64,000 bases of DNA. Source: Desulfobacteraceae bacterium (lineage in GTDB: Bacteria; Desulfobacterota; Desulfobacteria; Desulfobacterales; Desulfosalsimonadaceae). Under the pieces are notes generated by a model. It was given only the letters and a program-made list of their open reading frames with translations. It was not told the DNA's origin and did not search any database. A program made the translations under genes and the position numbers. Numbering within the stretch: position 1 is the first letter of the stretch; the number at the start of each line of letters is the position of its first letter. Positions 7,410 to 62,861 of the stretch are shown piece by piece. The DNA is taken from NCBI GenBank assembly GCA_014237465.1, contig JABZFM010000001.1, positions 62,001-126,000 of the forward strand, read 5' to 3'.

Positions 7410-7699
7410 GTATTAATTATTTTCCAATTATTGTGATTAAAAATTGTTTTATGTCAACACCGACTGAACAAAACATGATGGATTCGAAAAAGTCAAGAAT
7501 CAGCTTTTTCTGGATTTTTGTCATCAATAAATTCAATAAGATAAAAAGACAATTTTGCAAAACACTGACTTTTTACAGAGACATCAAACTTGAATTAAAA
7601 ATTAATATAAACAAATTTTGATGGAAATAAAACGAATTTAAATGCGAATCAAGGCCGGATATAAGGAGTCAGGAACCCCTGTCTGGGTGTCAAAAGGTT
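7410..7699. other. Intergenic, AT-rich, no supported gene
   Basis: A 62-codon open frame at 7433-7621 has no ribosome site, no family resemblance and biased Lys/Asn/Phe content. I treat it as non-coding. Nothing else is evident before the inverted repeat at 7700. Confidence 0.5.
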
Positions 7700-7780
7700 A
7701 ACTATTTGATATTTATTGAAAATAACAAATAGTTCGTACGCAAATTTTTCTTGACACCTAAAAGGACTCTTTGGTAGTTA
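7700..7780 (+). promoter_or_regulatory. Inverted repeat and candidate promoter of the fad operon
   Basis: A perfect 9-base inverted repeat AACTATTTG (7700-7708) / CAAATAGTT (7726-7734) lies just upstream of TTGACA (7751-7756). The -10 is poor (TAGTTA at 18 bases). The repeat could be an operator, for example for a fatty-acid regulator, but no regulator gene adjoins it. Confidence 0.4.
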
Positions 7781-39241: not shown

Positions 39242-39281
39242 CACCAACTATCACAATTTTGCATCCTGCGATCATTTACAC
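39242..39281 (+). repeat. Upstream sequence block shared with 50505-50544
   Basis: The block ending CGATCATTTACAC is about 85 percent identical to the block upstream of the fragment gene at 50614. It lies about 100 bases upstream of the riboswitch and could contain a promoter. Confidence 0.45.
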
Positions 39282-39350
39282 GCATTTCTGTTTTCTATAT
39301 TATCACAGTCAGTGATGAAGAGCAATTTTTCTGTTTATCAGTGTTTCTGT

Positions 39351-39450
39351 TTATCAGACAAAGCCAAATTCGTCGTGAGGCGGAGACGGAAAGCCACGGG
39401 TCTCAAGGAGACAGCCGGGTTGCCTGAAGAAAGGTACCCGGCTTTTTTTA
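39351..39450 (+). promoter_or_regulatory. GEMM-type (cyclic-dinucleotide) riboswitch, copy 1
   Basis: The aptamer core GACGGAAAGCCACGGGTCTC, then AAGGAGACAGCCGGGTTGCC, preceded by AAAGCCAAA, fits the GEMM-I consensus (GCAAA, GACGCAAAGCC, AGCCGGGTTGCC tetraloop-receptor arm). The 3' arm GCCGGGTTGCC (39414-39424) also forms an intrinsic terminator with GGTACCCGGC (39433-39442) and a T-run. Ligand binding should therefore compete with termination (ON switch). Whether the ligand is c-di-GMP or 3',3'-cGAMP cannot be told from reading. Confidence 0.85.
39414..39449 (+). terminator. Expression-platform terminator of riboswitch 1
   Basis: GCCGGGTTGCC / GGTACCCGGC stem with seven T. It shares its left arm with the aptamer. 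Confidence 0.85.
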
Positions 39451-39528
39451 TTCTTATGTGGTTTTAATCGGAATATGTTGGGTGCCAAGTTTAACCTAAA
39501 CCATAATTATTGTTAGGAGGAAAAGAAA

Positions 39529-41028
39529 ATGCGTAATTCAAAGAGTTTATTGGTTTATTTCATTGTTCTCTGTACAGGATTGGCCCTGGCAGCCCCGACC
39601 ACGGCTATAGGGAAAGTAATGAAAGTGGTGGGACAAAACGATCCGGCCGTTGACGTTGCAGCTGTCCAGGATGCGGTTGATTCTAATGGTTCAGTGCGCC
39701 TGGAGGGAACCTTTGACTTTGGAGAAGACGGTTCTGTAACCCTGACTCAGAGCGTTCAGATCCGTGGCCAGGCAGACAATCAAGGCAATCCCCTGACAAC
39801 CATTAAAGGGGGGGACAAGACATTTTATTGTGATGATACGGATGTCAGCATCAAGATCAGTCAGATTTGTTTTGACGGAGCGAAATTTTGCGCCATTCGG
39901 GTACGTCAATGCGATGTACTGGAAATTTCAGACAACAAGTTTATCAACCTCGTCGGCGGGTTAAATTACGGAGAGCGCGGAGATCCCTATTATGACGCAG
40001 TCGGCGCTATTATCGGCGGCAAGAGGATAGAGTCGCAAAATGGAAGAAATATTTACTGCCGCAACATCACTGTGTCAGACAATTATTTTGATTGCGGGGC
40101 TTACGATGAAAACGGGCAATTAATCAATCGGGATGTGGGCCTGCTGCCTGAAACATCCAGAGGCTTGAGGCTGTATCATTGTGTTGTTGAGAATGCGTAT
40201 ATCACCGGCAATGAAATCATAAACGTCAACAGGATTTGCATAGACGTGCTTGATGCCAGCGGCACGCCCGACCTTACGGCTGATATTTACATAGAGCAGA
40301 ACGATGTATCCACCGGTCCTTACGCAGCCCGGGGCGGATGGAGTGCCAGTGAGATAGTGGGGTCCAGTTACGGCATGCATTGCCTTTGCGGCTTTGCGCA
40401 TCCGGAAGCAATATATACGAGATTTCACGTAAACCACAATAATATTACCGTATGGGCCACAAATCCATGGGCTTACGCAGCGGGTATTTATATGCTGCCC
40501 GGCACCTCTTTTGCGGAAGTTTCGTTCAACACATTTAACCTGGGAGAAAACGCGGCCGGTGGTATTTATGTGATGTGGGTTTATGGAATGGCCTCCCCCC
40601 TGGCAAACCAGCCCCATAATAATGTCATCAGCAACAACCAGTTTATCGGGACTGTCACTCCGGCCATCATGTCTTTGTCCCCGCTTCGGATATTACCCGG
40701 TGCTGCAGTTGGTATGGGATCCACCCACTCCAACGCGATCTTGGGGAACAATTTTGACAATTTGATCCCCATCCCAAAACAGATGGGGGGCATGATTTTA
40801 CCGGCCGCACACGTGATTTTCACGGGATATGATCTGGCTAACGGTGTTTTCCCGGCAAGAGATAACGTCCTTGTCGGTGGGGGCGGATTTGTTATTGACG
40901 GGACAGACAACCCTTTGACCCCCGAGTATGATGGATTGAATTCCATCAAGGGAGACTTTAATATTCAGACCGAGGGCGGCGTTGGCTATGATCTTACGGA
41001 GATCATAAAGGCGTCTAAAGACTTCTAA
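39529..41028 (+). CDS. Secreted right-handed beta-helix protein
   Basis: Exported protein of 499 residues with a signal peptide (1-26, cleavage near TTAIG). Repeated short strands with Asn-rich turns (ITVSDNYFDC, AYITGNEIINV, IYIEQNDVST, FHVNHNNITVW, AEVSFNTFNLG, NVISNNQFIG, NAILGNNFDN) indicate a parallel beta-helix as in pectate-lyase-like proteins. No catalytic residues can be assigned. AGGAGG precedes ATG 39529. It is controlled by the riboswitch 80 bases upstream, so it is probably a surface or matrix protein linked to a cyclic-dinucleotide lifestyle switch. Confidence 0.75.
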   Translation: MRNSKSLLVYFIVLCTGLALAAPTTAIGKVMKVVGQNDPAVDVAAVQDAVDSNGSVRLEGTFDFGEDGSVTLTQSVQIRGQADNQGNPLTTIKGGDKTFYCDDTDVSIKISQICFDGAKFCAIRVRQCDVLEISDNKFINLVGGLNYGERGDPYYDAVGAIIGGKRIESQNGRNIYCRNITVSDNYFDCGAYDENGQLINRDVGLLPETSRGLRLYHCVVENAYITGNEIINVNRICIDVLDASGTPDLTADIYIEQNDVSTGPYAARGGWSASEIVGSSYGMHCLCGFAHPEAIYTRFHVNHNNITVWATNPWAYAAGIYMLPGTSFAEVSFNTFNLGENAAGGIYVMWVYGMASPLANQPHNNVISNNQFIGTVTPAIMSLSPLRILPGAAVGMGSTHSNAILGNNFDNLIPIPKQMGGMILPAAHVIFTGYDLANGVFPARDNVLVGGGGFVIDGTDNPLTPEYDGLNSIKGDFNIQTEGGVGYDLTEIIKASKDF

Positions 41029-41038
41029 GATACTTTTT

Positions 41039-41070
41039 GCGAACCCCGCTGGTTGCCCTGCGGGGTTCGC
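41039..41070 (+). terminator. Terminator after the beta-helix gene
   Basis: Perfect 11-base stem GCGAACCCCGC / GCGGGGTTCGC with a 10-base loop; no long T-run. Confidence 0.75.
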
Positions 41071-41189
41071 TGTTTACAAAAAGAAGTTCCGGCAGTGGCA
41101 AGAGCATCGCATGCGATTAACGATCATCACAATGTCTGTTAAGAAAAATAAACTTTTAACCATGTTTCGATTTGAACAAGGGGTGTATC

Positions 41190-42632
41190 ATGAAAAAAAC
41201 AATACAAAACAAGAAACTATTTTTTAAACGATCAATCATGAAATTGGTGATGCTGATCACTGCTTTCACTATCGTTGCATCAGGTTTGCCGATGGCTGTT
41301 AACGCCGAAGATACTCATGCAGAGTTTCCTGACAGAACAACCTTGTGGGAAGGGCCCTATGATATCTTTATCAGACCTGAACTCAACATTGCTTATCCTG
41401 ATACCGGCGCCGTCTATTGGTCGGCACAGATTACAATACCCGAAGGTGCAAAGCTTGAGCTGGTGGGTACATATGCACACGCAAGGTACGAATCCATCAA
41501 TTCCTATGATATGGCCACAGGCGCTCCCACCGATGCCCTTAATGATGTGCAGATCGTTCCTGATCCAGGCTCTGACAACCCCTTTTTGCCCGGTGCGTTA
41601 CGTGCTAATGATAATATCAACCGCGATTTCACCATTACAATTCTGAATGAACTTCCTCCGGCAGATCCGGCTGATCGTCTTCCCAATACACTGTATGCCA
41701 AATCAGGTGATGAGGGAAAAATCGTTCTGGCATGGCGTATCTATGTCACTGATAAAAATCGTGACATTACCGGAGGCGTTGGACTCCCGGAACCGCGTGT
41801 AACATTGGCAGACGGAACTGTCCTGGATACAGAAGCTTCATACGCTGCACTGTCTATTGATCAGACACCTATTCCTATCCTGAACATGGATTTGCAAACT
41901 TACATAGCGCTGCGAGAAGGAATCGTCCTGCAGCAATATGGCTGGCCTTACCCGATACCAGAGACATTCCCGGCTCAGAATCCTCCGGTTTTTAAAAAGG
42001 TCTTCAATGTCAATGAAACGGTCGCATGCTCTTTCGTAAAGCAGTTCCTGGGGATATGCGATCCAGCACCTGAATATATTGTAGGACAGTATGCAAATCT
42101 TGACAACCAGTATATGTCCGTTACTATTAACCGCGGTCATGGGGAAGTTGTTGTGATTCGTGGAAAGGCACCTGTTACTCCTGCAACTTACAAAAGAGTT
42201 CCATTCATGCAGGAAAATGTTGACATGCGCTATTGGTCCATCACTTCAAACGAATCCATTGCCACAACCAAGGTTGCGGACGGCGTTTATGACGAACAGG
42301 CACCCCTTGATCCGAATGGTTATTACACAATCGTAGTGAGTCTTCCAGAGGATCGTCCCCTGAACGCACAGGAAAGAAACGGCGTAAAATGGCTGGCATG
42401 GCCTGAAAATGGCGATGGTGTATTATTTCCTCCGCAGTATAATCATCCGGATGACGGAAATCTTATTATCCGCAACATGCTCCCATCATCTGATTTCGGG
42501 CATGCTATTCAGGACGTGGAACTGCCTGGCACAGAGAGTGATGTTCTCGGACCCTACATGCCGGTTTGTCAGTATATGAGCATCGTGGAATTTGAAGCAC
42601 TTGGTCTCAGACCATGGAAAAACCTGCCCTAA
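41190..42632 (+). CDS. Secreted protein of unknown function, related to the C-terminal module of the 987-residue protein
   Basis: Exported protein of 480 residues with a long signal peptide (about 1-39, ending AVNAED). Two segments parallel the large secreted protein encoded downstream: IVPDPGSDNPFLPG with NRDFTITILNE (compare IQPDPDNLNPFQSG with NRNFTLWYVPE) and VDMRYWSITSNES (compare NDMRYWSITMNNF). The family resembles DUF1254/DUF1214-like exported proteins, but I cannot assign it. The start is ATG 41190 with AAGGGG upstream; an in-frame TTG at 41172 is less likely. It lies downstream of the beta-helix terminator. Confidence 0.65.
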   Translation: MKKTIQNKKLFFKRSIMKLVMLITAFTIVASGLPMAVNAEDTHAEFPDRTTLWEGPYDIFIRPELNIAYPDTGAVYWSAQITIPEGAKLELVGTYAHARYESINSYDMATGAPTDALNDVQIVPDPGSDNPFLPGALRANDNINRDFTITILNELPPADPADRLPNTLYAKSGDEGKIVLAWRIYVTDKNRDITGGVGLPEPRVTLADGTVLDTEASYAALSIDQTPIPILNMDLQTYIALREGIVLQQYGWPYPIPETFPAQNPPVFKKVFNVNETVACSFVKQFLGICDPAPEYIVGQYANLDNQYMSVTINRGHGEVVVIRGKAPVTPATYKRVPFMQENVDMRYWSITSNESIATTKVADGVYDEQAPLDPNGYYTIVVSLPEDRPLNAQERNGVKWLAWPENGDGVLFPPQYNHPDDGNLIIRNMLPSSDFGHAIQDVELPGTESDVLGPYMPVCQYMSIVEFEALGLRPWKNLP

Positions 42633-42677
42633 TCATTTGCAAGAGGATTTAACCAAAAAATTATAATCAGTAAGAGT

Positions 42678-42709
42678 GTGAGCCGGGGAAAAGATTTTCT
42701 CCGGCTCAC
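42678..42709 (+). terminator. Terminator-like hairpin after 42632
   Basis: GTGAGCCGGGGAAAA / TTTTCTCCGGCTCAC stem with a two-base loop. No following T-run. Confidence 0.65.
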
Positions 42710-42762
42710 TTAAATAACAACTTGATTTAATAGTTATAAATTCACAGTTAGTGTTTGTTCTG

Positions 42763-42863
42763 CTTATCAGATAAAGCCAAATCCGTTGTGAGGCGGAGAC
42801 GGAAAATCGCGGGTCTCAAGGAGACAGCCGGGTTGCCTGAAGAAAGGTACCCGGCTTTTTTTA
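42763..42863 (+). promoter_or_regulatory. GEMM-type (cyclic-dinucleotide) riboswitch, copy 2
   Basis: Nearly identical to the copy at 39351: AAAGCCAAATCCGTTGTGAG, GGCGGAGACGGAAAATCGCG, GGTCTCAAGGAGACAGCCGG. The left arm GCCGGGTTGCC (42827-42837) pairs with GGTACCCGGC (42846-42855) to form the terminator. Most differences lie in the P1b stem and keep pairing (CACGGG here is CGCGGG). It precedes the 987-residue secreted protein by about 180 bases. Confidence 0.85.
42827..42862 (+). terminator. Expression-platform terminator of riboswitch 2
   Basis: Same stem as copy 1 with seven T (42856-42862). Confidence 0.85.
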
Positions 42864-43042: not shown

Positions 43043-46006
43043 ATGAAACGAAAATACATCTTTAAAGGACTGTGGTGCTGGATATTTTTTCTGGTCCTCA
43101 GTGTTTTGACATTCCCGGGAGGGATGGTGTCGGCAGATGACGGTTACGAGCCCCCTACTAATTCTTATCTGGCAAATTCCCCCTGGCCAATGTCCCACCG
43201 CAACCCTTATTGTCAGGGGTCATCTCCGTTAAGAGGTCCTGAAGCAAGTGATACCCTTGGCGTGGATTTTTCACTGGTGGGCATGGCGCCAATCACATTG
43301 AATTTTTCAGCCCCTTATCCGGACGGCAAACGGTATATCTGGGCGTCTTCAGTAACGAACATCTTCAAGGCCGACCCCAACGGAGACCATGTAACGGTGC
43401 TGGCCATATCAATGAAAAGCCTCACCGGGGATCCGATCTCCGGGGCCTACACCGTGTTGGATAAAGACAACAAATTTTACGTACCCGGCAATACGGTTAT
43501 TACAGTGTTTCAGGATGCGGTTGCCGGCGATCCAACATCGGATATTGTTCAGTCAGCCGTATTTACCATCCCGGACACTTATCTGGTAAGCGATGATGAA
43601 CATATTGTCGGAATGAACATGACATATGACGGGTATTTGGCCTTTGCCACCTCTCACGGACTTGTGGGCGTTGTGTCACGGGATTTTACCGAGTCCTACT
43701 TTGTAAGCCTGAGGGCTGATGGAGATGATGAAGAGGTTTCTAATTCCATATCCGTGGATGAAGACGGCGGGATTTACGTGGTGACCAGTCACTTCATGCA
43801 CGGTCTCAAGTGGACCGGTTTCGGGATACTGGATGAGTGGACCGCAACATACGAAACCGGACCGGCAGTACCGCCTCCCGGACGGCTCGGGACCGGTTCC
43901 GGAACCACCCCGTCTCTCATGGGCTCCGGAAGTATGGATAAATTTGTCGTTATCGGCGACGGGAATGCCCCATTGATGAATCTGGTGCTCTTCTGGCGAA
44001 ATGAGATTCCTGCAGACTGGGAACCGATCGCGCCGGGCGTCGACATCCGTATCGCCGCCCAGGTCCCCATCTTGTTCGGCGACCCGGACAGGGAAACCAG
44101 CATAACGGAACAGTCCGTGCTGGTTCGGGGGTATAGTGCCGCGGTGGTGAGCAATGATTACGGCGACCTGCCAAGCAACCCCGACCTTCCCGGATTTTTG
44201 GGTGAACTCAACGTATTGCTGACCAATTTGGCGCCATACGCCCCGTACGGGGTGGAAAAGTTTACCTGGGATCCCGGGACACGGCAAATGACCAGCACCT
44301 GGGCCAACCCGGACATCAGCTGTCCCAACGGCATACCCACCATGAGCGCTGACTCGGGATGCATGTACTGCTGGGGCCAGCGCAATGCCATCTGGACCCT
44401 GGAAGCGATTGACTGGAATACCGGGGAGTCCAAATTTCATAAGACTCTAGGTTTCCTGCCCATATACAACAGCACCTACGCGGCCACTGAGATCGGTATC
44501 AATCGGTCCATTGTCAGCGGAACGTTCTTCGGCATGGCCAAAATCGAACCAACAGATGATGTGAGCAACACCATTCCCCTGGATTACGATCCGGAAACCA
44601 ATAATGTCTTTATGGCCGGCCTCATCGAACACAATGCGTATGCCGATACGGTTGACTACACAGCGGAGAAATACTTTACCGACCCGGAGGCGTATCAGGA
44701 TGAGGTGGATTGCGGTACCTGTACCTCCCAATGGGGCTATACATGGAACGCCATGTATCCCTTTACGGCATTTGCTTTCCCGAACATGGACACTGCCTAT
44801 TGGTTTTATTCCCTCGACAGTGTGCAGAGTGCCCCGCTGCCCATCATCCGGTTAACCGGCCAATTTCCCCATTGCCGCTACTACAGCTTTAATCTTTACG
44901 ACAATACATCCGGTTTTGCCGTGGGAGACGGCTTTCTGGACAAGGACATTCAACCGGATCCGGACAACCTGAATCCCTTCCAGAGCGGTGTGGGCAGGGA
45001 AGTATTGAATCGGAATTTCACCCTCTGGTATGTGCCGGAAGGCCATCCGGCATATGCTGAGCTGCTGGCGGCATACGGCCCCAATAATGTCCTGGAAATT
45101 CCGGATGCGCTGATCGAACCCTCGATCGCTGTCCGGGTCTATTTGCCGGACGGCGGCTATAAAATTCACGGGCAACCGAGTGACGACATTGCATTGCCGA
45201 CAATCGAATCCTTTGATCCGAACCAGACGACTGTTGCGGGTATCCTTGCGAATCCCGTTCCCTGCCCGGACGCCTATAACATGAATCAAGAGGCTTTTCT
45301 GGCCCGGATGGCCGGCGCAGGGGATGTGGAAAGGATGGACCCGGAAACGGATATTTTCAAAAAAGTGGAATTTTATCGGGCTCCCGGCGGCGGGTGGTGG
45401 CCCACGGTTCATAATGTATATGGTGCTTCGATTCTCAGGCCGTATACCATATACGACGATGAGCTGAACGCGTATCCCGGGTTCGGAGAAGTGATTGATC
45501 TTTATTTCAAGGTGCCCAACACACCCAAAACCCTGGCCGGCGGCGGCGCGTTTGACCATGGTGCAAACGATATGCGTTACTGGTCGATTACAATGAATAA
45601 TTTTGACTCGACCTTCGGTATGCGGGCCTATAATGACGAAACAGCCGCGACATATACGGACAAAAAAGGCAACCGGTGGGTGCACCTGGTGGCCGGCCCG
45701 GACAACCCGGTATTGAAGACTTTTATCCGGAACAATATGACAAATGTGACCTTTCTGCCCTTTGACGGCGCACAAATTCCGTTCGTCCTTCCAACCGGTA
45801 AACGGGTCAGGTCATTGCCCACCGTGCTTCAGCGAAATCTGGTCATCAACCCGGCATACGAATACGGATACGATGCAGCGGAAGTTCGGCCGGAAGCAGT
45901 TCATGGAAAGGCTGTGTTGAAATACGCGGCCGATAAATGGATGGGTGATTATGCCCCTGATGGGTCCCATTACACCCTTAAAGCATTTATGAAAAAATAT
46001 AAATAA
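43043..46006 (+). CDS. Large secreted protein with beta-propeller-like N-terminal half
   Basis: Exported protein of 987 residues with a signal peptide (1-31, ending VSADDG). The N-terminal 500 or so residues have repeated short strands such as ITLNFSAPYPDGKRYIWASS, TYDGYLAFATSHGLVGVVSR and VDEDGGIYVVTSHF, spaced as in propeller or PQQ-like blades. The C-terminal half (from about 560) carries the module shared with the 41190 protein (CRYYSFNLYDNTSG, IQPDPDNLNPF, NDMRYWSITMNN), plus CxxC-like VDCGTCTSQWG. Function unknown. AGGAGG precedes ATG 43043. It is controlled by riboswitch 2, and a decayed copy of its 5' part lies at 50614. Confidence 0.7.
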   Translation: MKRKYIFKGLWCWIFFLVLSVLTFPGGMVSADDGYEPPTNSYLANSPWPMSHRNPYCQGSSPLRGPEASDTLGVDFSLVGMAPITLNFSAPYPDGKRYIWASSVTNIFKADPNGDHVTVLAISMKSLTGDPISGAYTVLDKDNKFYVPGNTVITVFQDAVAGDPTSDIVQSAVFTIPDTYLVSDDEHIVGMNMTYDGYLAFATSHGLVGVVSRDFTESYFVSLRADGDDEEVSNSISVDEDGGIYVVTSHFMHGLKWTGFGILDEWTATYETGPAVPPPGRLGTGSGTTPSLMGSGSMDKFVVIGDGNAPLMNLVLFWRNEIPADWEPIAPGVDIRIAAQVPILFGDPDRETSITEQSVLVRGYSAAVVSNDYGDLPSNPDLPGFLGELNVLLTNLAPYAPYGVEKFTWDPGTRQMTSTWANPDISCPNGIPTMSADSGCMYCWGQRNAIWTLEAIDWNTGESKFHKTLGFLPIYNSTYAATEIGINRSIVSGTFFGMAKIEPTDDVSNTIPLDYDPETNNVFMAGLIEHNAYADTVDYTAEKYFTDPEAYQDEVDCGTCTSQWGYTWNAMYPFTAFAFPNMDTAYWFYSLDSVQSAPLPIIRLTGQFPHCRYYSFNLYDNTSGFAVGDGFLDKDIQPDPDNLNPFQSGVGREVLNRNFTLWYVPEGHPAYAELLAAYGPNNVLEIPDALIEPSIAVRVYLPDGGYKIHGQPSDDIALPTIESFDPNQTTVAGILANPVPCPDAYNMNQEAFLARMAGAGDVERMDPETDIFKKVEFYRAPGGGWWPTVHNVYGASILRPYTIYDDELNAYPGFGEVIDLYFKVPNTPKTLAGGGAFDHGANDMRYWSITMNNFDSTFGMRAYNDETAATYTDKKGNRWVHLVAGPDNPVLKTFIRNNMTNVTFLPFDGAQIPFVLPTGKRVRSLPTVLQRNLVINPAYEYGYDAAEVRPEAVHGKAVLKYAADKWMGDYAPDGSHYTLKAFMKKYK

Positions 46007-50438: not shown

Positions 50439-50504
50439 GTTGTGCGGCTATCGACCGTTTCAGATTAATTTTCCGGTTCCGGTGTTCAGTAAATTATTCT
50501 CTGC

Positions 50505-50544
50505 AACCAATAATCATAATTTTACATCCGGCGATCATTTACAC
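50505..50544 (+). repeat. Upstream block shared with 39242-39281
   Basis: Ends CGATCATTTACAC as in the block upstream of the beta-helix gene, and precedes the fragment gene at 50614. Confidence 0.45.
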
Positions 50545-50613
50545 CTGTTATTAATTGTTTTAGTATAAAAAAATCGGAAGAATTTGCAATACTCAGGAAA
50601 TATTAATCAACCA

Positions 50614-51334
50614 ATTCCCGGGAGGGATGGTGTCGGCAGACGACGGTTACGAGCCCCCTACTAATTCTTATCTGGCAAATTCCCCCTGGCCAATGTCCCA
50701 CCGCAACCCTTATTGTCAGGGGTCATCTCCATTAAGAGGTCCTGAAGCAAGTGATACCCTTGGCGTGGATTTTTCACTGGTGGGCATGGCGCCGATCACA
50801 TTGAATTTTTCAGCCCCTTATCCGGACGGCAAACAATATATCCGGGCGTCTTCAGTAACGAACATCTCCAAGGCCGACCCCAACGGAGACCATGTAACGG
50901 TGCTGGCCTGGGGATCCGATCTCCGGGGCCTATACCGTGATGGATAAAGACAATAAATTTTTCGTACCCGGCAATACGGTCATTACAGTGTTTCAGGATG
51001 TAAGAGAGGGAGATTCAATTCTTTTGACACAGAATTCGCTGACAAATAACAATTTTTACAGAATCGTATTCGATGCAATCCCTTCACCGGCATATGTGGT
51101 GAAAAAGGATGTACAAGTCGTCGATTGCAATACCGCTGCTTCAAAGATGTTGTCCAAAGATCCGGAATTGATCATCCGAACACGCCTTGGAGAAGTTATT
51201 CAGTGTCTTCATTCAACAGAGGGATGCGGCAATGATCCCTTTTGTGAAAAATGTATTATCAGACATTCAGTCAATCAGTCCCTCTCAAGTCAAAAGGTGA
51301 TACGTCAAAAGGCAAAAATTTCAAGGAGAACAAG
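50614..51334 (+). pseudogene. Mosaic pseudogene: 5' piece of the 987-residue gene joined to a PAS-domain fragment
   Basis: 50614-51000 is a near-identical copy of 43111-43517 lacking the signal peptide start and carrying a 20-base deletion near 50909 that shifts the frame. At 51001 it switches to a second segment that first matches 46179-46226 and then reads as a PAS domain (FYRIVFDAIPSPAYVVKKDVQVVDCN) and a Cys-rich stretch (CGNDPFCEKCIIRHS). That reading ends after about 95 codons with no output domain. A junction peptide could be translated from 50937, but it has no plausible function. Confidence 0.8.
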
Positions 51335-61253: not shown

Positions 61254-62861
61254 ATGGCTGAATGCAAAATTCCCGGACACATTGCATATGAGCTGGAGTG
61301 CAAGGCGGAAAATACCCCGGATTTAAATATTGTGACATTTGAAAACGGTGATTTTGCGGAAGACATCCTGACCTACCAGGACATTGTCATACAGGGCCGG
61401 AAAATAGCGCGGCTGCTGATTAATGCCGGCATTGGGAAAGGTGATACGTTTGCGCTGCTGATGCGGAATCATCCGGAATTTTTATATGCAATGTATGCGG
61501 CGACAATGATCGGTGCGGTTTTGGTACCGATTGATCCCCGCGTGAAGGGCGACCGGTTGAAATATGTGCTGAAAGATTCTAAAGCCAAAGGCATTATTTT
61601 CACCAGTGAATTCATGGACAATGTAACAGCGGTTCTATCCGATCTGCCGGATGTAAAAGTTCTGGGCATTGCTTATAAGGAAGGAATGAATGCTCCGGTC
61701 AATGGTCAGTTTCCTTCATTAAATGAAGTTTATGAGGGTGCAGAAGTCGCGCCACCAGACAACCGAAACGATGAAATCGCGATTCCCCTTGAAATTATCT
61801 ATACATCCGGAACCACCGGTGATCCCAAAGGGGTGGTGCTCAAGGGAAGCCGCCTTACCCCGTTCTCTATGCTGGCGCAATTTGTCTGGCAGTATACTGC
61901 TGAAGATAAGCTTTATACCGGCTTGTCTCTAACCCATGGAAACGCACAGGCCGTCACATTGATGCCATCCATCATGCTGTCGATTCCATCTGTTATCAGC
62001 TCCAGATTTACCAAAAGCCGTATCTGGGATATCTGCAGAAAATATGGATGTACCTCTTTTTCTTTGCTGGGCGGTATGATGATGGGGATTTACAGTGAAC
62101 CGCCAAAGCCCGATGACGCAGATAACCCGGTGCGCCTGGTCTTAAGTGCCGGAACACCCCATGCGATCTGGGAGGATTTCGAAAAGCGGTTTAATGTGAT
62201 GATCCACGAGTGGTATGGCGCTGTTGAAGGCGGGTTTGCCCATAAACCGCCGGGGGTGGGGCCTATCGGCTCGTTCGGAAAGCCTTTGGAAGGCCTCATG
62301 GAAATGAAAGTTGTCGATAATGAAGGAAATGATTGCCCGCCGGGAGTAACCGGAGAGATCATTTTCAGGTTGCTGGGCCAGGAGACAGAGGTCGAGTATC
62401 TGGGCAAGAAAAAAGCTTCTGAGGATAAAACCCGGGGCGGCTGGCTGCGAACCGGCGACATGGGACATACGGACGACGCCGGCTGGTTTTTCTTTGACTA
62501 CCGGGCCGGTGGCGGATTGCGCCGGGCCGGTGATTTTATCCAGCCCCAGTACGTGGAAGCCGGCATCGCAATCCATCCGAATGTCAGTGATGTCTGTGTT
62601 TACGGGGTTCCGGCAGCCTCCGGTGCTCCCGGGGAGAGTGATCTGGTGGCAGCTGTTGTGGCAATTGATGGGCAGACCCTTGATCCCAAATCTCTTTTTA
62701 CCCATTGCAAAGAGAAACTGGAAGGTAATGCCATACCGTCATATCTGCAGGTGGTAGATGCAATTCCTAAATCTGCCTCAGAAAAGAATCTGGACCGGTT
62801 GCTGCGGGAAGAATTTTCAAAAGAAGCGGATAATATTTACGTACTGGAAGACTTTAAGTAA
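61254..62861 (+). CDS. AMP-dependent acyl-CoA synthetase/ligase (CaiC-like)
   Basis: Adenylates a carboxylic acid and forms its CoA thioester. ATP-binding P-loop IYTSGTTGDPKGVVL (near residue 179), the HEWYGAVEGG motif, WLRTGDMGH (hinge Asp region) and the catalytic C-terminal Lys region IPKSASEKNLDR. The 535 residues are usual. It resembles the crotonobetaine/carnitine-CoA ligase branch, but the substrate is unknown. AAAGGGGAAAG precedes ATG 61254. It is coexpressed with the SCP2 protein. Confidence 0.9.
   Translation: MAECKIPGHIAYELECKAENTPDLNIVTFENGDFAEDILTYQDIVIQGRKIARLLINAGIGKGDTFALLMRNHPEFLYAMYAATMIGAVLVPIDPRVKGDRLKYVLKDSKAKGIIFTSEFMDNVTAVLSDLPDVKVLGIAYKEGMNAPVNGQFPSLNEVYEGAEVAPPDNRNDEIAIPLEIIYTSGTTGDPKGVVLKGSRLTPFSMLAQFVWQYTAEDKLYTGLSLTHGNAQAVTLMPSIMLSIPSVISSRFTKSRIWDICRKYGCTSFSLLGGMMMGIYSEPPKPDDADNPVRLVLSAGTPHAIWEDFEKRFNVMIHEWYGAVEGGFAHKPPGVGPIGSFGKPLEGLMEMKVVDNEGNDCPPGVTGEIIFRLLGQETEVEYLGKKKASEDKTRGGWLRTGDMGHTDDAGWFFFDYRAGGGLRRAGDFIQPQYVEAGIAIHPNVSDVCVYGVPAASGAPGESDLVAAVVAIDGQTLDPKSLFTHCKEKLEGNAIPSYLQVVDAIPKSASEKNLDRLLREEFSKEADNIYVLEDFK

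Follow-up and report, generated by a model that had tools for sequence, protein, structure and literature searches.

The stretch of DNA analysed here (the window; 64,000 nucleotides [nt], positions 62,001 to 126,000 of contig JABZFM010000001.1, assembly GCA_014237465.1, from a Desulfobacteraceae bacterium) carries two near-identical leader elements of the GEMM riboswitch clan, each followed by a gene whose product has a signal-like N-terminus. A cmscan search of the whole window against all Rfam families returned two GEMM-clan matches above the gathering score, at 39354-39428 and 42767-42841 (a further two overlapping matches from that clan scored lower and are left aside). This agrees with the initial annotation, in which both sites had been called GEMM riboswitches and a covariance search with the Rfam GEMM models had been proposed as a check. 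The best-scoring model was RF03167, and both elements also exceeded the gathering score of 35 set for RF01051, the cyclic di-GMP (c-di-GMP)-I class. A minus-strand match at 1837, obtained in a regular-expression scan of the whole window, was dropped, since there was no Rfam match there. The features of the two leaders and the genes behind them are given below; P1, P2, and P3 denote the stems, and the pocket positions follow the numbering of the Vibrio cholerae Vc2 RNA.

39275..39303, plus strand: sigma-70-like promoter candidate of leader 1 (TTTACA, 17 nt, TATTAT; 10 of 12 positions match)
39354..39428, plus strand: aptamer 1, c-di-GMP-I (GEMM) class (RF03167, 71.5 bits, E = 6.1e-15; RF01051, 64.1 bits)
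39354-39357/39424-39427 (P1), 39364-39389 (P2), 39392-39421 (P3), plus strand: stems of aptamer 1, from the folds and the family alignment
39363 (G20), 39364 (C21), 39389 (G46), 39390 (A47), 39423 (C92), plus strand: pocket of aptamer 1
39413..39449, plus strand: intrinsic terminator 1 (5' arm AGCCGGGT(T)GCCT; seven T at 39443-39449)
39529..41028, plus strand: gene for a 499-amino-acid (aa) protein, first after riboswitch 1, signal-like N-terminus, no known family (open reading frame [ORF] and family searches)
41190..42632, plus strand: gene for a 480-aa protein with a signal-like start (start 41172 and 486 aa in the ORF list)
42767..42841, plus strand: aptamer 2, c-di-GMP-I class (RF03167, 65.1 bits, E = 4.1e-13; RF01051, 58.7 bits)
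42776 (G20), 42777 (C21), 42802 (G46), 42803 (A47), 42836 (C92), plus strand: pocket of aptamer 2
42826..42862, plus strand: intrinsic terminator 2, identical to terminator 1
43043..46006, plus strand: gene for a 987-aa protein, first after riboswitch 2, signal-like N-terminus, no known family

The core GACGGAAA (39385-39392 and 42798-42805) and the arm AGCCGGGTTGCC (39413-39424 and 42826-42837) are present at both sites, as had been described, and a 107-nt direct repeat with 93% identity contains both riboswitch elements. Six positions distinguish the 100-nt elements; four of these lie in the P2 and P3 stems and keep a standard pair each time, and the other two are unpaired. The differences thus fall mainly in pairing-preserving stem positions, as first claimed. 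The promoter scan found 11 sites against 7.4 expected, and the site at 39275..39303 is therefore a candidate only.

In each copy, P1 is short (TCAG/CTGA), P2 is capped by a GTGA loop, and the 3' strand of P3 falls within AGCCGGGTT. For the 80-nt leaders, the minimum-energy fold was the three-stem aptamer including P1 (-23.7 kcal/mol for copy 1 and -21.6 kcal/mol for copy 2), and for the 102-nt leaders it was a bulged terminator hairpin followed by the T-run (-35.2 and -36.7 kcal/mol, respectively). The terminator hairpin itself reached -21.3 kcal/mol, where shuffled sequences averaged -8.9 (z = -4.9; equalled by 0 of 200 shuffles). A simple terminator scan of the window (three sites, 3.9 expected) listed neither riboswitch terminator, probably because their stems are bulged. 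Since the 5' arm of the terminator is the 3' strand of P3/P1 and includes C92, the aptamer and terminator folds are mutually exclusive, and the reuse of this strand points to an ON logic. The shared-arm terminator proposed initially is thus backed by the arm found in both leaders, the z-score of the fold, and covariation in the family (see below), and the ON direction, proposed along with it, by the reuse of the arm.

Both elements are very probably c-di-GMP-I (GEMM-I) riboswitches that act as genetic ON switches through transcription termination. The class membership, the mutually exclusive folds, the covariation of arm and terminator, and the pocket letters were computed for the window leaders; we infer the ligand, the direction of switching, and any physiological role. 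When the ligand is absent, the strand AGCCGGGTTGCCT would pair with the downstream AGGTACCCGGCT, burying the ligand-pairing C92, and transcription would stop at the run of seven U. When c-di-GMP is bound at the P1/P2/P3 junction, where it would contact G20, A47, and C92, AGCCGGGTTGCCT would be held in P3 and P1, the terminator would be blocked, and the exported-protein gene would be transcribed.

The conservation of this arrangement was determined in the bacterial family of the source organism, where RF03167 gave 140 matches in 33 of 36 genomes; 125 of them were used, and the 15 weakest, two of which came from the same genome as the window, were left out. Across 34 short-loop copies without gaps (32 of them distinct), pairing holds in 92.0% of the cells, compared with 79.2% after shuffling, and the covariation score was 0.454 compared with 0.200, neither value being reached in any of 500 shuffles; the upper part of P2 was paired in 96.9% of the cells and P3 in 97.2%. 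A T-run lies downstream in 96 of the 104 G46-type copies with at least 50 nt of 3' DNA (there are 105 G46-type copies in total). In copies of this type, the aptamer arm paired with its own platform at a mean of -22.8 kcal/mol and with swapped ones at -19.5 kcal/mol, and 0 of 10,000 permutations were as low; the kinship of the copies makes this figure optimistic, which counts against it, but its direction is clear. Arm and terminator thus appear to change together across the family, as expected of an ON switch working by transcription termination. As to the pattern-based loci, 3 of the 118 aptamers lay too close to a sequence end to be used, and a strict pattern for terminators matched 40 of the other 115.

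Several of the structural results weigh against such a switch. Doubly changed pairs numbered 11, and the shuffles gave 10.1 (as many in 175 of 500); P1 was paired in just 68% of the family cells and is absent from the RNAalifold consensus, and P3 is mostly near-invariant. The median platform pairs better with 14% of the foreign arms, the corresponding value for the two window copies being 2%. Finally, the terminator fold exceeds the aptamer fold in stability by a wide margin, and the control of both leaders would therefore have to be kinetic.

Concerning the ligand, both copies carry G20, C21-G46, A47, and C92, of which G20 and C92 presumably contact its two guanines. All five positions could be read in 110 of the 125 family copies and not in the other 15, position 92 being assigned by a crude count, as letter six from the end of each match. 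Among the 110, position 20 is G in 105 and A in 5, position 47 is A in 108, and the 21-46 pair is pyrimidine-G46 in 98 and G21-C46 in 9. The A20 relatives (G009:C211:1263, G024:C7:55304, G035:C146:28555, G018:C37:8220, and G018:C178:1737) are candidate cGAMP (3',3'-cyclic GMP-AMP, also written c-AMP-GMP) sensors of the family. According to in-line probing in Desulfobacca acetoxidans, aptamers of the G type strongly favour c-di-GMP, and one of the A type binds c-AMP-GMP markedly better (PMC9481103). At least 117 stretches combine G20 with C21-G46, and their titles include Desulfobacterota, Geobacter, Methylococcaceae, Nitrosospira, Sulfurovum, Acidobacteria, and one D. acetoxidans, and this occurrence in several phyla suggests that the combination goes with the common ligand.

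The genome has 17 matches to PF00990, 13 with a GGDEF-type motif and 4 without it. All 13 motif-bearing domains carry the canonical Asp and none the Ser that replaces it as a signature of Hypr cGAMP synthases (PMC6456294). PF18134 had no match in the genome. PF18144 matched one gene, which also fits cyclase models of the cyclic oligonucleotide-based antiphage signaling system (CBASS):

G000:C58:63011-63490 (L293): CBASS-type cGAS/DncV-like nucleotidyltransferase (CD-NTase) beside an E2-like gene, from PF18144 and the CBASS cyclase models

Because both copies have G20 and the genome encodes 13 canonical GGDEF domains, none of them Hypr-type, c-di-GMP is clearly favoured as the ligand of both leaders and is highly likely to be the right one, while cGAMP keeps some likelihood because of the CBASS-type cyclase. 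The initial annotation had left the ligand open, which was too cautious. Binding of c-di-GMP is predicted here from the pocket letters and the class, and its effects on expression would follow as outlined above.

The strongest alternative is that both RNAs are 3',3'-cGAMP sensors of the Geobacter type or respond to both dinucleotides. It draws on several observations that weigh against c-di-GMP: the C21-G46 pair is also read in the crystallized RNA of a Geobacter cGAMP riboswitch (P2 C15-G40; PMC6274999), and PMC9262584 reports that changes in the lower P2 affect selectivity, which was not greatly altered by mutating the equivalent of position 20 in the Cd1 RNA, so this position is not absolute; further, 5 of the 110 readable relatives have A20, and the genome encodes the CBASS-type CD-NTase with its E2-like neighbour. 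Position 20, however, is G and not A in both copies, the D. acetoxidans aptamers of the G type that were probed strongly favour c-di-GMP, the Hypr serine is found in 0 of the 13 GGDEF-motif domains, and the spread of G20 with C21-G46 over several phyla points to the common ligand. On the grounds of G20, the lack of Hypr-type domains, and the D. acetoxidans probing, we rejected cGAMP as the principal ligand and consider this alternative unlikely. It is less likely still that the c-di-GMP-type G20 and the cGAMP-type C21-G46 make up a pocket with a dual response. Such a pocket, if real, would switch on the exported-protein regulon with c-di-GMP and with a guanine-containing dinucleotide, for example, a possible product of the CBASS-type cyclase, and would link surface remodelling to phage attack.

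A further alternative takes its cue from the Rfam sub-label of RF03167, c-di-GMP-I-GGC, and holds that the leaders belong to this variant, with an altered pocket and possibly another ligand. RF03167 does score higher than RF01051 for both copies, but its consensus is GACGCGAA (C46, G47) where the window reads GACGGAAA (G46, A47). From the model consensus we infer that the middle G of "GGC" is position 47, which is A, not G, at both 39390 and 42803; G47 was found in 1 of the 110 readable family copies. Moreover, according to a paper that used all these models, the RNAs that they recognise tend to be the same (PMC9943018). The sub-label was accordingly rejected as a guide to the ligand, G47 being absent from both copies, and membership in the variant is very improbable; "GGC" can evidently be the top match for RNAs with ordinary c-di-GMP pocket letters. 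A literature search with the accession RF03167 returned no paper, while the name of the sub-label does occur in print. Just as improbable is the view that the leaders do not respond to any ligand, being decayed duplicates or ordinary terminators, for which their near-identity, possibly due to recent copying, and a decayed partial cassette beginning 7.5 kb downstream could be cited, but to which the pairing-preserving stem changes, the intact pocket letters, and the complementarity of arm and terminator kept throughout the family are opposed.

The c-di-GMP-I reading places the leaders close to several known systems. With the RF01051 class they share the predicted three-stem fold, the GTGA (GNRA-type) loop of P2, G20, A47, and C92, and the GACG..AA core; they differ from it in the lowest pair of P2, which is C21-G46 in the window copies and G21-C46 in Vc2. 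The pilM switch of Geobacter metallireducens, a cGAMP riboswitch of the GEMM-Ib type, is described in PMC9262584 as an ON switch whose terminator overlaps the aptamer and buries the ligand-pairing C. The window leaders resemble it in the ON logic and in a terminator that reuses the aptamer 3' strand and buries this C, but they have G at position 20 where pilM has A, and c-di-GMP is therefore expected, unlike in pilM. The c-di-GMP-I riboswitches of D. acetoxidans come from the same broad bacterial group and are likewise predicted ON switches with terminators but adjoin adenosylcobalamin (AdoCbl) riboswitches (PMC9481103); a locus on a contig titled D. acetoxidans (L212) is also of the G20/C21-G46 type and has a terminator that shares the aptamer arm. 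To RF03167 the leaders are tied by the top covariance score and unlike it in the letters at 46 and 47. Triplets, doublets, and predicted ON switches of the c-di-GMP-I class have already been published (PMC9481103), and tandem c-di-GMP riboswitches are reported to be enriched in Thermodesulfobacteriota (PMC12452182). The window pair is a good new addition to a well-known switch class and holds little that is surprising.

As regards the origin of the two copies, near-identity had been taken initially to suggest duplication, a claim that is plausible. When aptamer and terminator were compared among 42 short-loop family copies, the two were mutual best matches (93.8%), and a leader of the same genus (G027:C27), which sits before a relative of a gene for a 146-aa protein, was 91.7% like copy 1. 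For the aptamer alone, however, this leader and copy 2 tied as the best match of copy 1 (92.0%), and when 42 nt of downstream DNA were included, G027:C27 was slightly nearer to copy 1 (82%, compared with 80% for copy 2), and another leader of the genome (C64) was level with copy 1 as the match of copy 2 (80%). What weighs against a settled duplication is that a tree of 41 short-loop leaders is mostly without resolution. Local duplication may explain the two copies, or one older leader may have been recruited twice, separately, and the lineage may have spread such leaders over several exported-protein genes. Rearrangement in this region is real, because a decayed cassette joins three pieces of it:

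50486..51052, plus strand: decayed partial copy of the riboswitch 2 cassette (direct repeats; 93% protein match)

These pieces resemble coding DNA for the N-terminal part of the 987-aa protein (98% and 95%), the DNA upstream of leader 1 (81%), and the DNA after the 987-aa gene (85%); cmscan of the window gave no Rfam riboswitch match within 50486-51052.

The proteins encoded behind the leaders are little known. The 987-aa protein had been named as an exported target, and it is indeed the product of the first gene after riboswitch 2, with a signal-like N-terminus by a crude rule. The beta-helix label given to the 499-aa protein found no support: neither Pfam (E <= 1) nor NCBIfam (E <= 0.1) had a family that matched it, and AlphaFold run without an alignment gave a predicted local distance difference test score (pLDDT) of 33.3. 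The 480-aa protein, which no Pfam or NCBIfam model matched, shares 28% identity with a section of the C-terminal half of the 987-aa protein; a model of it from a two-row alignment had a pLDDT of 32.7 and was set aside. The 480-aa protein matched nine stretches of its own genome, itself included (window 41190-42632; G000 C13, C23, C39, and C20). Sequence searches against solved structures were weak, with three matches for the 480-aa protein (best E = 0.049) and one for the 987-aa protein (E = 0.0038). Among 242 sampled genomes of the order, the source genome always included, 2 had a match to the 499-aa protein, 3 to the 480-aa protein, and 8 to the 987-aa protein, the N-terminal half of which has 52% relatives in two genomes from another family of the order; the 499- and 987-aa targets do not recur among the sampled genomes of the family. 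A regular expression for the G46 type, the only type searched for, found no convincing aptamer in 24 loci around the protein matches (flanks up to about 1.5 kb); the single match, in L158, was by eye not an aptamer. To judge from these distributions, it was apparently in this lineage that the target genes of the window acquired their riboswitches.

The genome as a whole has six strong and two weak riboswitch matches. The first genes behind the six strong copies encode the 499- and 987-aa window proteins, a 146-aa exported protein, an 833-aa lipoprotein with FG-GAP repeats, a pectinacetylesterase-like protein, and a 1018-aa protein with MopE, fn3, and lectin motifs, and all six have a signal-like N-terminus by the crude rule. 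Proteins that resemble the 146-aa one at the N-terminus also follow riboswitches in nine other genomes, and proteins that resemble the esterase do so in four. Across the family, a crude hydropathy rule gave a signal-like start for 74 of 118 first genes and 47 of 103 background ORFs (p = 0.015, a weak result from data that are not independent); 7 of the 125 loci had no called first gene. The six copies make up a small predicted c-di-GMP regulon, in a lineage about which little is known, and uncharacterised exported proteins gain a probable signal.

Five of the six strong copies have a terminator, and the sixth, on contig C15, has a translational-type platform with a covarying anti-Shine-Dalgarno strand:

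G000:C15:15685-15772 (about 7686-7773 of locus L020): second GEMM type, G21-C46, without a terminator, with 12 family relatives

In leaders of this type, the aptamer is followed by a hairpin that contains an anti-Shine-Dalgarno strand able to pair with the purines at the start site of the next gene. Own pairs had a mean of -18.5 kcal/mol and swapped pairs -14.7 kcal/mol, as low a value being reached in 1 of 10,000 permutations (12 usable of 13 cases). The C15 target itself has fn3 and lectin motifs, and the targets of many relatives are similar at the N-terminus. The C15-type leader looks like a conserved translational switch. A different arrangement was seen at locus L102 (G013:C121:729-1016, minus strand), where three GEMM aptamers stand in tandem before the gene for a 168-aa protein with a signal-like start, the last of them 25 nt upstream of its called start codon.

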